From: Candidatus Nitronereus thalassa
GTDB taxonomy: Bacteria > Nitrospirota > Nitrospiria > Nitrospirales > UBA8639
Assembly (NCBI RefSeq): GCF_032191465.1
Contig: NZ_JAQOUE010000001.1
Span: 3,131,501 to 3,195,500 of the forward strand
DNA length: 64,000 nucleotides
Direction: 5' to 3'
The stretch's first letter is position 1, and every line of letters begins with the position of its first letter. A program made the translations under genes and the position numbers. The notes under the pieces were generated by a model. It did not search any database, was not told where the DNA came from, and saw nothing but the letters and a program-made list of their open reading frames with translations. This document shows, in pieces, positions 8,938-18,250 of this stretch.

Positions 8938-9897
8938 ATGGAACAAACCAAGAAAAACCCGATGACAGAAGGAAGTGAACTTGACCGATTGCTGTATCAC
9001 TATACCACCATCTTACAGGCTGAACGTGGTCTTGCCCGCAATACCCTGGAGGCGTATCGCCGAGATTTGGGGAAGTTTCAGCAGTATTATGCGAAGATCG
9101 GCCTTCAAAATCCACATGCATTGACGACTGCAGTCGTTTTGGGATTTCTTGAATTTCTTCGGAGCCAGGAGTTGTCCGCGACCTCGGTGGCGCGTTGCAT
9201 GGCGGCGATTCGGGGTTTCTGTCGGTTTTTGAGCCTGGAACATGGGATTCCCGATGTGCTGGCCCAGATTCCACGATCTCCGAAACAATGGCTGAAGTTA
9301 CCCAAAACGTTGACGGAATCCGAAATCACCAACTTGTTGGAATTGCCTGCAGGGGAGGGGCCGGAAGAAATGCGTGATGTGGCAATGGTCGAACTTTTAT
9401 ATGCGACGGGCTTGCGTGTCTCCGAACTCATCAGCGTGGATCTTGCACAGGTGAATTTGGAGGTCGGGTATTTGTTAGCCACGGGGAAGCGTGATAAGCA
9501 ACGCGTCGTCCCCATGGGAGAAACGGCCAGAAAGAAAATTTCCGAATATTGTCAGGACGCCAGACCTGTTCTGCTGAAACATCACAATTCATCGGCGCTC
9601 TTTGTGACTCGTCGCGGCACAGCCATGACCAGGCAAAGTTTTTGGGGGATTCTCCGGAAGCGGGCTCTTCGGGCGGGTATTACTAAACGCATTTCCCCCC
9701 ATATGTTGCGGCATTCATTTGCCACCCATCTTTTGGAGCATGGGGCCGATCTCCGCGCCGTCCAAATGATGCTTGGTCATGCCGACATTGCCACCACTCA
9801 AATTTATACTCATGTTGAGCAGCGCCGGCTGAAAGACATGCATACCGCGCATTTCCCAAGGACCCAGCGACGGGGGGCAAAGGGAAAATCATCGTGA
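8938..9897 (+). CDS. xerD: tyrosine recombinase XerC/XerD family
   Basis: A site-specific recombinase of 319 aa, of the type that resolves chromosome dimers at dif with FtsK. The N-terminal SAM-like DNA-binding domain spans about 15-105. The catalytic domain has all the expected residues: Arg160 (ATGLRVSEL), Lys184 (ATGKRDKQR), His255 and Arg258 (HMLRHSFATHL), His281 (MLGHADI) and the nucleophile Tyr290 (TTQIYTHV). Full length and chromosomal context suggest a housekeeping Xer rather than an integrase. Choice between XerC and XerD is uncertain. An alternative ATG exists at 8962. Confidence 0.9.
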   Translation: MEQTKKNPMTEGSELDRLLYHYTTILQAERGLARNTLEAYRRDLGKFQQYYAKIGLQNPHALTTAVVLGFLEFLRSQELSATSVARCMAAIRGFCRFLSLEHGIPDVLAQIPRSPKQWLKLPKTLTESEITNLLELPAGEGPEEMRDVAMVELLYATGLRVSELISVDLAQVNLEVGYLLATGKRDKQRVVPMGETARKKISEYCQDARPVLLKHHNSSALFVTRRGTAMTRQSFWGILRKRALRAGITKRISPHMLRHSFATHLLEHGADLRAVQMMLGHADIATTQIYTHVEQRRLKDMHTAHFPRTQRRGAKGKSS

Positions 9898-10245
9898 TCT
9901 GTAATGCGTGGGTGTGATTCCTACCGAACAAATATGTTTTTCCCTCCTGATTTGTTCTAACTACTCCTTGAGTTTTTATTCACAAATTGTATGTTGCGGG
10001 TTTTCGCCTGACCGCGACGAGTCACTGTTGTTTCGCCAAAAGTGACCAAAACCATTTTTGCCTGTGCGCACCCAACACCGGAGACGAAGTGAACCATTTA
10101 CAGGGTGTCGCTATTTCTCCCCGACACTTCACGCATTAAATCTTGCAATTCACAGCGTCCCTAGGTTGCATTGAAAAAATCCACTATGGCAGGTTTAGGA
10201 ATGACAATGCGTTCGGATGTTTAGGGTCCCTGAAGGAGGATAACG
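9898..10245. other. 348-bp non-coding gap holding a degenerate repeat copy
   Basis: No credible ORF. It contains the third, decayed copy of the structured repeat (9994-10072). The last 15 bases before the zinc ribbon gene carry a strong AAGGAGG ribosome site. No convincing promoter was seen. Confidence 0.6.
9994..10072 (+). repeat. degenerate third copy of the covarying hairpin repeat
   Basis: Shares the core GCGACGAGTCACT with the copy at 15357. The shared part continues through the hairpin, the CCAAAACCATT tract and GCGC. The main hairpin is GTCACTGTTG, loop TTTCGC, CAAAAGTGAC (10021-10046), with one mismatch. The second half of the repeat, seen in the other two copies, is absent here. Confidence 0.75.
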
Positions 10246-15336: not shown

Positions 15337-15356
15337 AAGGAAGGTTTTATTTTTAA

Positions 15357-15543
15357 GCGGGGTTTCGGCCCCGCGCGACGAGTCACTTTTGTTTCGGCAA
15401 AAGTGACCAAAACCATTTTCGCCCGGGCGCGGCCCTACGGGTGCCTGGTCCGCCACCCCGAATCAAGATGGCTCAGAAACTCGCTCCGCTCAGACAGTCT
15501 TCGCCAGAGAGGTAGGATTCGGGGCGGCGGCCCAGCCGCGCCC
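15357..15543 (+). repeat. structured repeat, left copy of an inverted pair around the TIR gene
   Basis: About 187 bp. It starts with hairpin GCGGGG-TTTCGG-CCCCGC (15357-15374) and a second hairpin GTCACTTTTG-TTTCGG-CAAAAGTGAC (15382-15407). It then runs through CCAAAACCATTTTCGCC and a tract centred on TCGCTCCGCTCAGACAGTCT (15481-15500). The reverse complement of 17281-17465 aligns along its whole length. The 15471-15520 tract differs at only two or three positions, while the hairpin stems differ by compensating changes. Resembles large REP-type elements. Confidence 0.88.
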
Positions 15544-15858
15544 AAGGCGGGGAAGTGTCAAGACCCAAGGACTAAATGAAATTGGTTGCCAATAAAGGGT
15601 AACGTCCCCTTTTCCGGAAAAGGACGGTTTTTAGAGGTGCTCTCAATAAAAACTCAATACACTTGTTCTCCCAAAAATCATGCGCCTTAAAATAAAGAGA
15701 AGCGACACCTTTTCTGGCACTTATATTCGGATACTCGACACGATGATAGTCGGATCCCCCAATAGAGACTGTACATATTCCATCTAGTCAGTCCACTTCG
15801 AAGCCTAACGGCTTGTACTTTATGGCGTTGGCTGTAGCACTTTGTTGAGACTCAACGC
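15544..15858. other. 315-bp gap between the left repeat and the TIR gene
   Basis: No credible ORF. A hairpin with arms GTCC/TTTTCC and GGAAAAGGAC (about 15604-15625), followed by GGTTTTT, could end transcripts coming from the left. The rest looks AT-richer than the neighbours and featureless. It includes the region just downstream of the minus-strand TIR gene. Confidence 0.4.
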
Positions 15859-17091
15859 CTACGGGTTTAAGTTGCGCAATATTTTCTTACCGAAGTACGC
15901 AATTTTCCGAGCCAAAGAGATTCCCGCGTACGCACTATTCGCGTATGAGTAGAAATCCTCGTCGATTCCAGGGGCAGTAATTCCGCCCATATTGCCAAGT
16001 AGTGTGCGTATGTAACGACGTGGTGTGTTTATCTCATCGGGAATGCCAACACTCTCGAAAAATAATTCCATATCTTCGAGCTGGTCAAAGGATTCTTCGT
16101 TTATCGGAAGGAAGAAATCGGCTTGGTTGCACCATTGAAGGGTCTCAATCGCTTTTTTTGATTTCCGGTAAAAGATATAGACTGTCGTCAGGTCGAATCG
16201 GTCCGTCTGGGCAACACCAAGACTGGCAAAAAGAGAAATCATCCCTGAATCGAAATCATCGAACTGAATCCCTTTTAGGTGTGCGATAGGGGGCGGCGGT
16301 TTGATCCCATCCAGCAATATTGGGATAATTTTCGGAGTGCCGTCAGAGTGAAAGAGCATTATGGCATTATCCAGCTCTGTCTTTATCCAGGGTCTACCGA
16401 TAGAATTCTGTGACAGAATAACTATTAAGTGAGTGGCTGATCTCAAGCCTCTAGCTATTTCATCCGGAATTGAATCTCCTCCAACTATATCCTTATCATC
16501 TCTCCAAGTAGCTATTCCTGCCGCCTCAACTTCTCGTGAAATGGCGGTTGCAAGAGGCTTGTCTACGGTACCATGAGATACAAAGAGCTTTATTCCTGTG
16601 GATGTAGATGCGAAACCTTCAGTGCCTTTCTTCCAGAAACCGTCAATAGCCTTTCTTACTTCATCAACAGTTCCCAATGCATCAGAAATAGATTGATCAA
16701 CCAAAAATTTGATTGACTGGCATATATTATCCGCCTTCCTTAGTGCTTTACATAAGGGCGCGTCCGAGTCATCCATGTAAACCTGTGGTCTCGCCTTCTC
16801 TACAAAATCATTAAACTCTTTGATCAACCTGCATTGCTCACGGTGAACAGTTAGCAATGCCTTAGTCGAATGGTCATCCATACCCAATACTGCTACTCCC
16901 CAAGCCGCACGACTTTTCAATGCAATAAAATATGCGTTATCCTTTTCAATGTCAGCAATCGTGGCGAGTTGACATAGAAAGGCCTTAACCTCAGGAGTGT
17001 ATTGGCTTGCACCGGACAATCGAATTAAAACCGGCAGAATCACGGCGTATTGCGCGAGGAAGATAAGATTGTGCTTCTTGTCGGTCGACAT
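15859..17091 (-). CDS. TIR-domain protein
   Basis: A 410-aa protein with a central TIR domain at about 167-292. It opens GIKLFVSHGTVDKPLA, continues with AGIATWRDDKDIVGGDSIPDEI (here in two parts AGIATWRDDKDI and GGDSIPDEIARGL), SATHLIVILSQNS, and PWIKTELDNAI. Glu239 is in the position of the NAD-cleaving glutamate of enzymatic TIR domains. The first 160 residues are helical and unrecognised, as are the last 110. Bacterial TIR proteins often deplete NAD or make cyclic ADP-ribose signals in phage defence; that role is inference here. It lies alone between inverted repeats. No strong ribosome site seen. Confidence 0.87.
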   Translation of the reverse strand: MSTDKKHNLIFLAQYAVILPVLIRLSGASQYTPEVKAFLCQLATIADIEKDNAYFIALKSRAAWGVAVLGMDDHSTKALLTVHREQCRLIKEFNDFVEKARPQVYMDDSDAPLCKALRKADNICQSIKFLVDQSISDALGTVDEVRKAIDGFWKKGTEGFASTSTGIKLFVSHGTVDKPLATAISREVEAAGIATWRDDKDIVGGDSIPDEIARGLRSATHLIVILSQNSIGRPWIKTELDNAIMLFHSDGTPKIIPILLDGIKPPPPIAHLKGIQFDDFDSGMISLFASLGVAQTDRFDLTTVYIFYRKSKKAIETLQWCNQADFFLPINEESFDQLEDMELFFESVGIPDEINTPRRYIRTLLGNMGGITAPGIDEDFYSYANSAYAGISLARKIAYFGKKILRNLNP

Positions 17092-17280
17092 TTAGTGCGT
17101 TCTGACCGTAATCCGTTTCTTGAGCCCAACACTGTTTAAATGGATCGGTGTAAGAGGAGGATATTCAGGCTTCTGTCTGGATAACACGCCATCAATTCTT
17201 CCGAAGAATACGCCGGAACTGAGATCTTTTCAATTGGTACTGTCCGTGGTTTTGTTTTTTACGGCATCTCCTGCGTTGGG
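17092..17280. other. gap with a possible signal-peptide gene remnant
   Basis: Upstream region of the TIR gene. On the plus strand 17213-17287 reads as a typical signal peptide (FQLVLSVVLFFTASPALGADG) that runs straight into the right repeat copy and then has no plausible mature protein. This looks like the start of a secreted-protein gene truncated by the repeat, but no full ORF or ribosome site supports expression. Confidence 0.35.
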
Positions 17281-17465
17281 GGCGGATGGGCCAGGGCCTC
17301 GAATCCGACCTCTCTGGCGAAGACTGTCTGAGCGGAGCGAGTTCCTGAGCCATTTTAATTCAGGGTGAAGCCGGAGGAACCCGGAGGGTCGCGCACAGGC
17401 AAGAATGGTTTTGGGTCCTTTTGCCGAAACAAAAGGACCTCGTCATGCAGGGGCGAAACCCTGCA
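17281..17465 (-). repeat. structured repeat, right (inverted) copy
   Basis: About 185 bp, inverted relative to 15357-15543. Its main hairpin is GGTCCTTTTG-CCGAAA-CAAAAGGACC (17414-17439) and the outer one TGCAGGG-GCGAAA-CCCTGCA (17446-17465). Compared with the left copy the loops are kept and the stems change on both arms. The shared tract around GCGAAGACTGTCTGAGCGGA (17318-17337) is nearly identical. Confidence 0.88.
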
Positions 17466-17600: not shown

Positions 17601-17828
17601 ATGCTTGATTTGAAGGTCAGAAAAGTTGGGAATTCGTTGGGAGTAGTGTTGCCAAAGGAGGTGCTGTCTCGGTTGAACCTAGAAGATGGAGACCGGGTTT
17701 TTCTGACGGAAGCGCCGGATGGGAGTTATCGGATTACGCCGTATGATCCTGAGTTTGAATCGTATGTAAAGATCGCCAAAAAAGGTATGGCGAAATACCG
17801 GAATACTCTTCGCGCCTTGGCTAAGTAA
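17601..17828 (+). CDS. AbrB/MazE-family antitoxin
   Basis: A 75-aa protein starting MLDLKVRKVGNSLGVVLPKEVLSRLNL, here read as KVRKVGNSLGVVLPKEVL, the swapped-hairpin AbrB/MazE/SpoVT DNA-binding fold (about 1-48). It continues GDRVFLTEAPDGSYRITPYD, and a helical C-terminal tail probably binds the toxin. The AAGGAGG ribosome site is strong. The Doc-type gene starts 41 bases later, so this is the antitoxin of a type II module and likely represses its own promoter as a complex with the toxin (family knowledge). Confidence 0.88.
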   Translation: MLDLKVRKVGNSLGVVLPKEVLSRLNLEDGDRVFLTEAPDGSYRITPYDPEFESYVKIAKKGMAKYRNTLRALAK

Positions 17829-17869
17829 GTTCTCTCCATTGGTAAAGGTATGAAAACGATGATGGTTCT

Positions 17870-18250
17870 ATGAAAGAGCCTGCTTGGGTTCTTCATGATT
17901 TTGTTCTCGCATTACATGAAGACTTGTTGTCAGGGTTTGGGGGCGCATCCGGTATTCGAGATGGCGCGCTTTTAGAATCTGCTCTGGCTCGCCCTCACCA
18001 ATTATTTGCTTATGAAAAGCCTGATTTGTTTATCCTGGCGGCGTCCTACATCTCCGGTCTTGTTCGCAATCATCCCTTTATCGATGGGAATAAGCGAACA
18101 GCTTTTATGGTTGGCTATTCCTTCTTAAGCAGAAATGGCAAAGAGTTGAATGCTCCTGAACCAGAAGCGACAGCGGTCATTGTGGATCTGGCGCCCAGGA
18201 AAATTACGGAAGAAGATTTAGCAATGTGGCTTCGGCAGAATTGCGAGTAA
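17870..18250 (+). CDS. Doc/Fic-family toxin (death-on-curing)
   Basis: A 126-aa Doc-type protein. The Fic core NHPFIDGNKRTAF places HPFIDGNKRT at 68-77, matching the HxFx(D/N)GNKR motif used for phosphate or nucleotide transfer. The N-terminal GIRDGALLESALARP is typical of Doc relatives. Phage P1 Doc inactivates EF-Tu by phosphorylation; the same target here is only inferred. Paired with an AbrB-type antitoxin instead of Phd, a combination often seen in chromosomal modules. No strong ribosome site precedes the ATG, so expression may depend on the antitoxin gene. Confidence 0.9.
   Translation: MKEPAWVLHDFVLALHEDLLSGFGGASGIRDGALLESALARPHQLFAYEKPDLFILAASYISGLVRNHPFIDGNKRTAFMVGYSFLSRNGKELNAPEPEATAVIVDLAPRKITEEDLAMWLRQNCE

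Follow-up and report, generated by a model that had tools for sequence, protein, structure and literature searches.

The segment between positions 15357 and 17464 of the window (the whole stretch of 64,000 nucleotides that was analysed) is probably one of a family of non-autonomous gene cassettes mobilised in trans, similar to mobile insertion cassettes (MICs) and TIMEs and having unusual structured ends (Table 1). The family is marked by inverted pairing of its repeats, co-segregation of the two arms, empty sites, turnover of cargo, spread of solo copies and a module shared upstream of the cargo, and it is from sequence comparisons that we infer mobility in trans. The unit would consist of two inverted structured ends of about 200-260 bp, with hairpin P1 outermost, together with one or a few cargo genes and the module. 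Its two ends would act jointly as the ends of one element, either empty (about 500-545 bp) or loaded, whose usual landing place would be intergenic DNA close behind stop codons, chiefly where two genes converge. These ends would be recognised, perhaps as folded single strands, by a transposase or recombinase provided in trans, which would move the unit; the cassette's own promoter would allow expression of the captured gene at the landing site, and turnover of the cargo would provide the host with exchangeable defence and toxin-antitoxin genes.

Table 1. Features of the cassette at 15357-17464 and a related partial repeat (positions in the window)
Feature	Position	Strand	Evidence or remark
Partial repeat (P1, P2 and conserved linker only)	9996..10074	+	Profile E 1.3e-21, model positions 1-79
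A/T-rich stretch, 20 nt	15337..15356	+	Separates the left repeat from the stop codon of the Na+/alanine symporter gene
Left terminal repeat, short form 'B'	15357..15559	+	Profile E 1.9e-60; covariation; DNA fold z -5.0, outward strand
P1, outermost hairpin	15357..15374	+	Two-sided compensatory changes at three pairs
P2, hairpin around CTTTTGTTTCGGCAAAAG	15382..15407	+	Core sequence common with Gammaproteobacteria
Cargo TIR-domain protein, 410 aa	15859..17091	-	Pfam TIR_2 E 1.6e-21
Shared upstream module (leader), about 95 nt	17124..17216	-	Profile E 1.1e-22; just upstream of the cargo start codon
Sigma-70-like promoter TTGAAA-17-TATTCT	17205..17233	-	Pattern scan
Right terminal repeat, short form 'B', opposite in orientation to the left one	17257..17464	-	Profile E 3.6e-57

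The repeat search found the window pair as two arms of 195 nt (15357-15551 and 17270-17464) that are 81% complementary, far beyond chance, and the profile built from all copies extended them to the limits given in Table 1. The preliminary description had placed inverted copies of 185 bp at 15357-15543 and 17281-17465; the inverted pairing stands and the length does not, the arms reaching about 203-208 bp by the profile. In a global alignment the two arms are identical at 167 of 210 aligned positions, and the interior between them spans 1,697 nt, the TIR ORF taking up 1,233 nt of this. The left repeat is composed, in order, of hairpin P1, hairpin P2, a conserved CCAAAACCATT and a large stem (P3-P5). 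Inspection of the flanks of all copies showed that A/T- or T-rich stretches precede most of them, and at two solo sites in a sister species a T-rich stretch of 15-17 nt outside P1 is missing from the empty site; such a stretch outside the repeat may belong to the element. Elsewhere in the window, a tyrosine-recombinase-like gene (8938-9897) precedes the partial repeat by 98 nt, and an antitoxin gene of the MazE type and, after it, a Fic/Doc gene (17601-18250) adjoin the cassette outside the repeats and are conserved in G001, a genome of the same genus.

About 50 copies of the repeat were found by profile search in this Nitrospirales genome (4.01 Mb, two contigs), through which about fifteen to twenty cassettes are scattered, each with a different gene, frequently of a phage-defence type. 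Clusters were of the types '+-' (14), '+--' (3), '++' (2) and '--' (2), and none was '-+'. The order '+ cargo -' was present in 14 of the 18 two-copy clusters (P = 4e-6 for at least 14 of 18), and the 14 '+-' pairs carry inverted terminal repeats at both ends, with arms of about 200-260 bp. Convergent genes, as a rule housekeeping genes, flank 11 of 17 paired clusters and divergent genes flank none, and the outer end of a cassette typically lies 10-190 nt from the nearest gene end; genes were called as longest ORFs, mostly on MAG contigs, at loci selected for carrying repeats. The ends in this genome occur in a long form, with an extra stem, and a short form, and 13 of the 14 clean pairs combine a long with a short end (P = 0.003). 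Both ends of the window pair are short, and G001 and G009 have several such short/short pairs; having two different ends is thus a tendency and not obligatory. A clean phylogenetic split between long and short ends was rejected, the tree being mixed. Often, a cassette end lies directly against one of two further dispersed repeats, TCCCCGACGTTCTTTATCGGGGATCCAGG-like and GTCATCCTGAGCGGAGTGAAGGATCT-like (L009, L010, L012, L025, L018, L021 and L028).

The preliminary description had read the region as a cargo cassette carrying the TIR gene, and this part of it is borne out: different cargo lies between many further inverted pairs of the genome, relatives have empty sites, and arms related to each other are seen both loaded and empty. 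Neither of the contrary patterns that it named, a TIR gene carried by all relatives without repeats or repeats never paired around cargo, was seen, as a good match to the TIR protein is present in only 3 of 49 family genomes (own included) and repeats elsewhere are regularly paired. The TIR domain occupies residues 170-280, after an N-terminal region of about 165 aa; comparison with PADLOC gave PDC-S66 (7.5e-16) and ThsB (3.9e-11, weak at 41 bits), and the nearest solved chain is the TIR protein 3h16 (2.9e-9). The gene is a candidate for phage defence, a function predicted from its sequence. No ThsA partner of a Thoeris system was found beside it, the TIR gene being the sole ORF called within the cassette besides a read-through over the module and repeat. 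In G023, a full-length homologue (34%) lies close to a partial repeat. Cassettes usually bracket one or two unrelated ORFs. In a Pfam scan of 40 cargo proteins from this genome and its relatives, plus the TIR protein, the families named were TIR, Pycsar-type TIR, AbiU2 HEPN, HNH, staphylococcal nuclease, Schlafen AlbA_2, HigB, ParE, nucleotidyltransferase, HicB-like, ORF6N and DUF4238; more than half of the scanned proteins matched no Pfam family, and no transposase, recombinase or integrase family occurred among the 40 annotated cargo proteins. The interiors have a G+C content of 41.3%, compared with 49.6% in the flanks (Wilcoxon P = 6e-5, n = 16).

The secreted-protein remnant that had also been proposed, at 17120-17368, had to be abandoned: it has no Pfam hit, and its first 45 codons match the module in other cassettes (L034, L012 twice, and L028) because this ORF is the translated shared module running into the repeat. 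A module profile built from ten cassettes gave 20 matches over all loci examined (a few of which duplicate or overlap). Nearly all of these matches lie at most 440 nt from a repeat, directly ahead of the cargo start, and face inward. The module was found in at least ten of the cassettes examined, and it is also present in G014 and other Nitrospirales records. It ends in CTAAACATTGTT, beyond which the sequence turns cargo-specific, and RNAalifold returned no pairs for it, so no conserved fold. Six cassettes share hexamers of the TTGAAA-17-TATTCT type with 17-nt spacing, as read from the alignment, and the pattern scan is weak alone (5 found versus 2.8 expected over the region). We interpret the module as combining a cassette-borne promoter, whose activity is predicted, with a leader. 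A cassette at L117 (2275-4526) contains two ORFs with an upstream module before each, so that module and ORF may be a stackable sub-unit.

Empty sites and other cargo, which the preliminary description had proposed to look for in related genomes, were both found, including the pheT-rplT site and empty units of 500-545 bp. Between pheT and rplT, this genome and G001 have a repeat-bracketed cassette, and in 11 relatives the stop codons of the two genes face each other 0-116 nt apart, which represents the empty site. Where der meets an M20-type peptidase gene (names assigned by eye), the arms surround a nuclease gene in this genome, and G001 has an empty unit of 543 bp with only about 60 nt between the arms; two further empty units, of about 544 and 500 bp, lie elsewhere in G001. 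The profile search found no repeat in the corresponding junction stretches of G015, G024, G018 and G012. When the loaded unit (L014) was compared with the empty ones (L261, L260 and L231), scores were 163-315 bits between left arms, 129-280 bits between right arms and mostly 54-98 bits between left and right arms, with one exception of 134 bits within L231. Left arms thus resemble left arms and right arms resemble right arms, and therefore, in these four related units, the two arms travel as one element. Moreover, four sites (the window site, L019, L022 and L031) have other cargo in G001 than in this genome. The window site in G001 comprises the symporter gene, a repeat, a different ORF of 225 aa and MazE, and its right repeat is not detectable. 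A maf-side site holds three different cargoes, one each in G004, G009 and G014. Some of the shared sites have conserved junctions (L022 left, L023 right), and therefore part of the pattern reflects vertical inheritance with local cargo change and not fresh insertion.

Conserved junctions with different cargo would also fit an alternative in which a single repeat of about 200 bp is the mobile unit, pairs form at opposing stop codons, and homologous recombination via the repeats or the flanking core genes swaps whatever genes lie in between. Solo copies predominate in genus g4, where G005, G012 and G021 each carry about twenty of them, about 90% identical between G005 and G012; the sisters G015, G018 and G024 have essentially no copies, and G015 and G024 are about 87% identical in coding DNA. 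From these sequences, the single repeat has evidently spread recently in the sister species and genus. G005 also has a solo repeat at the der/M20 junction, where this genome has a loaded cassette, and genus g9 has long same-orientation arrays, some flanking restriction-modification-like genes (as read by eye), all of which speaks for the single repeat as the unit. We nevertheless regard this alternative as unlikely, given the co-segregation of arms and the empty units at several sites, the inverted orientation that is kept also in non-convergent contexts (the window, L018 and L009), and the long-form ends, which were found in pairs and were absent among the solo copies measured in this genome. 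One solo insertion in G012, compared with three empty relatives, is an insert of about 238 bp with AAGAAGTCG and AAGATGTCG on its two sides, giving a 9-bp target duplication (8 of 9 identical) that is a single case from a solo copy and not a pair; at the pairs of this genome no target-site duplication was evident by eye, and none is general.

The repeat alignment showed covariation, with both-sided changes in 16 of the 36 consensus pairs. In the large stem (P3 and P4) of full-length repeats, read from P1 inward, A.C mismatches numbered 49 and G.T mismatches 12, counts that are not independent, and in P1 and P2 they were even (10 to 11). Because A.C outnumbers G.T in P3/P4, the bias suggests that the folding strand is the one read from the cargo outward, as RNA or single-stranded DNA alike. 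Folded as RNA, the outer 144 nt by themselves did no better than shuffles (z -1.2), and a DNA-parameter fold of the full repeat gave z -5.0; these values come from different lengths and are therefore no test of RNA against DNA. A Rho-independent terminator was rejected, since no T run follows the hairpins when the flanks of copies are read outward, and in Rfam nothing over the repeats reached the gathering threshold, FsrA at E 0.13 being the sole match.

No transposase was present in any cassette examined, and no autonomous element with the same ends was found among the paired loci examined. The Y1 (HUH) transposase is absent from G000, G005, G010, G012, G017 and G021, an integron integrase over the cut-off is absent from these six genomes and from G020, and the reverse transcriptase (RVT_1) expected of a SINE-like retroelement is absent from G000, G012, G017 and G020. 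As each of the three enzymes is missing from several repeat-rich genomes, none of them is the general resident mobiliser; the exclusion covers these three, and XerC/D and DDE transposases remain candidates. Integron integrases over the cut-off occur only in G001 and G007 of 25 genomes. Three intact or near-intact copies are present in G001 (L064 and other contigs), and the genome of the window has only partial or weak matches.

The integrases of G001 are in agreement with an integron-like system, in which the repeats or the module would be sites for a tyrosine recombinase acting on folded single-stranded DNA and the cargo would be gene cassettes, as are the direct arrays with toxin-antitoxin cargo in g9, the strand-specific folding of P3-P4 and the end of the module, whose partial resemblance to attC (RYYYAAC ... 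GTTRRRY) is a lead only. However, the seven genomes named above have no integrase over the cut-off, the ends in this genome are inverted and not direct, and the module was not found 3' of the cargo, which makes this reading very improbable. That the repeats are structured 3'-UTR RNA elements insulating or stabilising transcripts, and not mobile ends, seems scarcely credible, since their position just past stop codons, the covariation and the strand-specific wobble in P3-P4 would suit such a role but the folding strand is antisense to the adjoining convergent gene, copies have spread recently, and an RNA role leaves the foreign cargo between pairs unexplained.

The cassette family is best described as being of the MIC, MITE and TIME kind, set apart by its long structured ends and cassette-borne module. 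MIC231 of the Bacillus cereus group is an example of an MIC. In such cassettes a passenger gene is enclosed by transposable-element ends, no transposase is present, and movement can occur in trans (PMC3129680). The cassettes described here likewise have a passenger gene between ends and no transposase inside, but their ends are about 200-260 bp long, multi-hairpin and covarying, no cognate insertion sequence was found, and they share an upstream module. TIMEs and TIME-COMP elements of the Tn3 family are small and non-autonomous, favour A/T-rich DNA and can enclose cargo between elements that point the same way or opposite ways; their inverted repeats are 38 bp long and of Tn3 type, their duplications measure 5-6 bp, and a genome usually has a single copy (PMC4133298). 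Non-autonomy, A/T-rich preference and cargo bracketing are common to both, whereas here no Tn3-type ends were recognised, there are about 50 copies, and a single 9-bp duplication was observed. Bacterial MITEs are short, multicopy, intergenic, structured and non-coding when empty (PMC10969869). The present elements are also multicopy, intergenic, structured and without coding capacity when empty, and differ in their very long asymmetric arms, solo half-units and cargo-loaded forms. Sedentary chromosomal integrons contain many single-gene cassettes with toxin-antitoxin and orphan genes and have folded sites, which recalls the cargo and folding seen here, but here inverted pairs lie at scattered sites and most repeat-rich genomes have no integrase. 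REP/REPIN sequences with RAYT are similar as inverted intergenic palindromic repeats, whereas here the unit is a multi-stem repeat of 200 bp and several repeat-rich genomes have no Y1 transposase.

The literature searched contained no description of this repeat or cassette family, which does not prove its absence. We can propose only tentatively that it is a distinct mobile cassette class, with long ends recognised as one particular folded strand, a built-in expression module taking arbitrary single genes, exchangeable defence cassettes in Nitrospirales, single repeats in some Gammaproteobacteria, and a mobilising enzyme so far tied to none of the known transposase families. Trans-mobilised cassettes of this kind would be a vehicle through which individual genes for defence and toxin-antitoxin systems turn over in a major group of nitrifier relatives; the paired structured ends together with the upstream module offer a sequence handle for finding new candidate defence genes. 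Should the ends be recognised in the form of folded single strands, there would be a new enzyme of transposition or recombination to discover. The copy number, the paired ends, the promoter-like module and the solo copies go beyond what the preliminary description had seen.

Many Nitrospirales carry the P2 core, as do Gammaproteobacteria (Xanthomonas, Acinetobacter, Sedimenticola and others), and in the Acinetobacter and Xanthomonas genomes tested the matches are mostly scattered singles and not close inverted pairs. The repeat search in plasmids and the exact-pattern search in viral contigs found none, and two Acinetobacter phage records matched over 41 nt only. At L044-L049 (G010, G017 and G020), arrays of 4-12 repeats, nearly all in one orientation, have small toxin-antitoxin-like genes between them and flank both sides of restriction-modification-like stretches, with the polarity '- - - [core] + + +'. 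Additionally, loci from Acinetobacter (L174, L142 and L147) and Xanthomonas (L156 and L162) carry dispersed single related structured repeats with an identical P2 core and linker.
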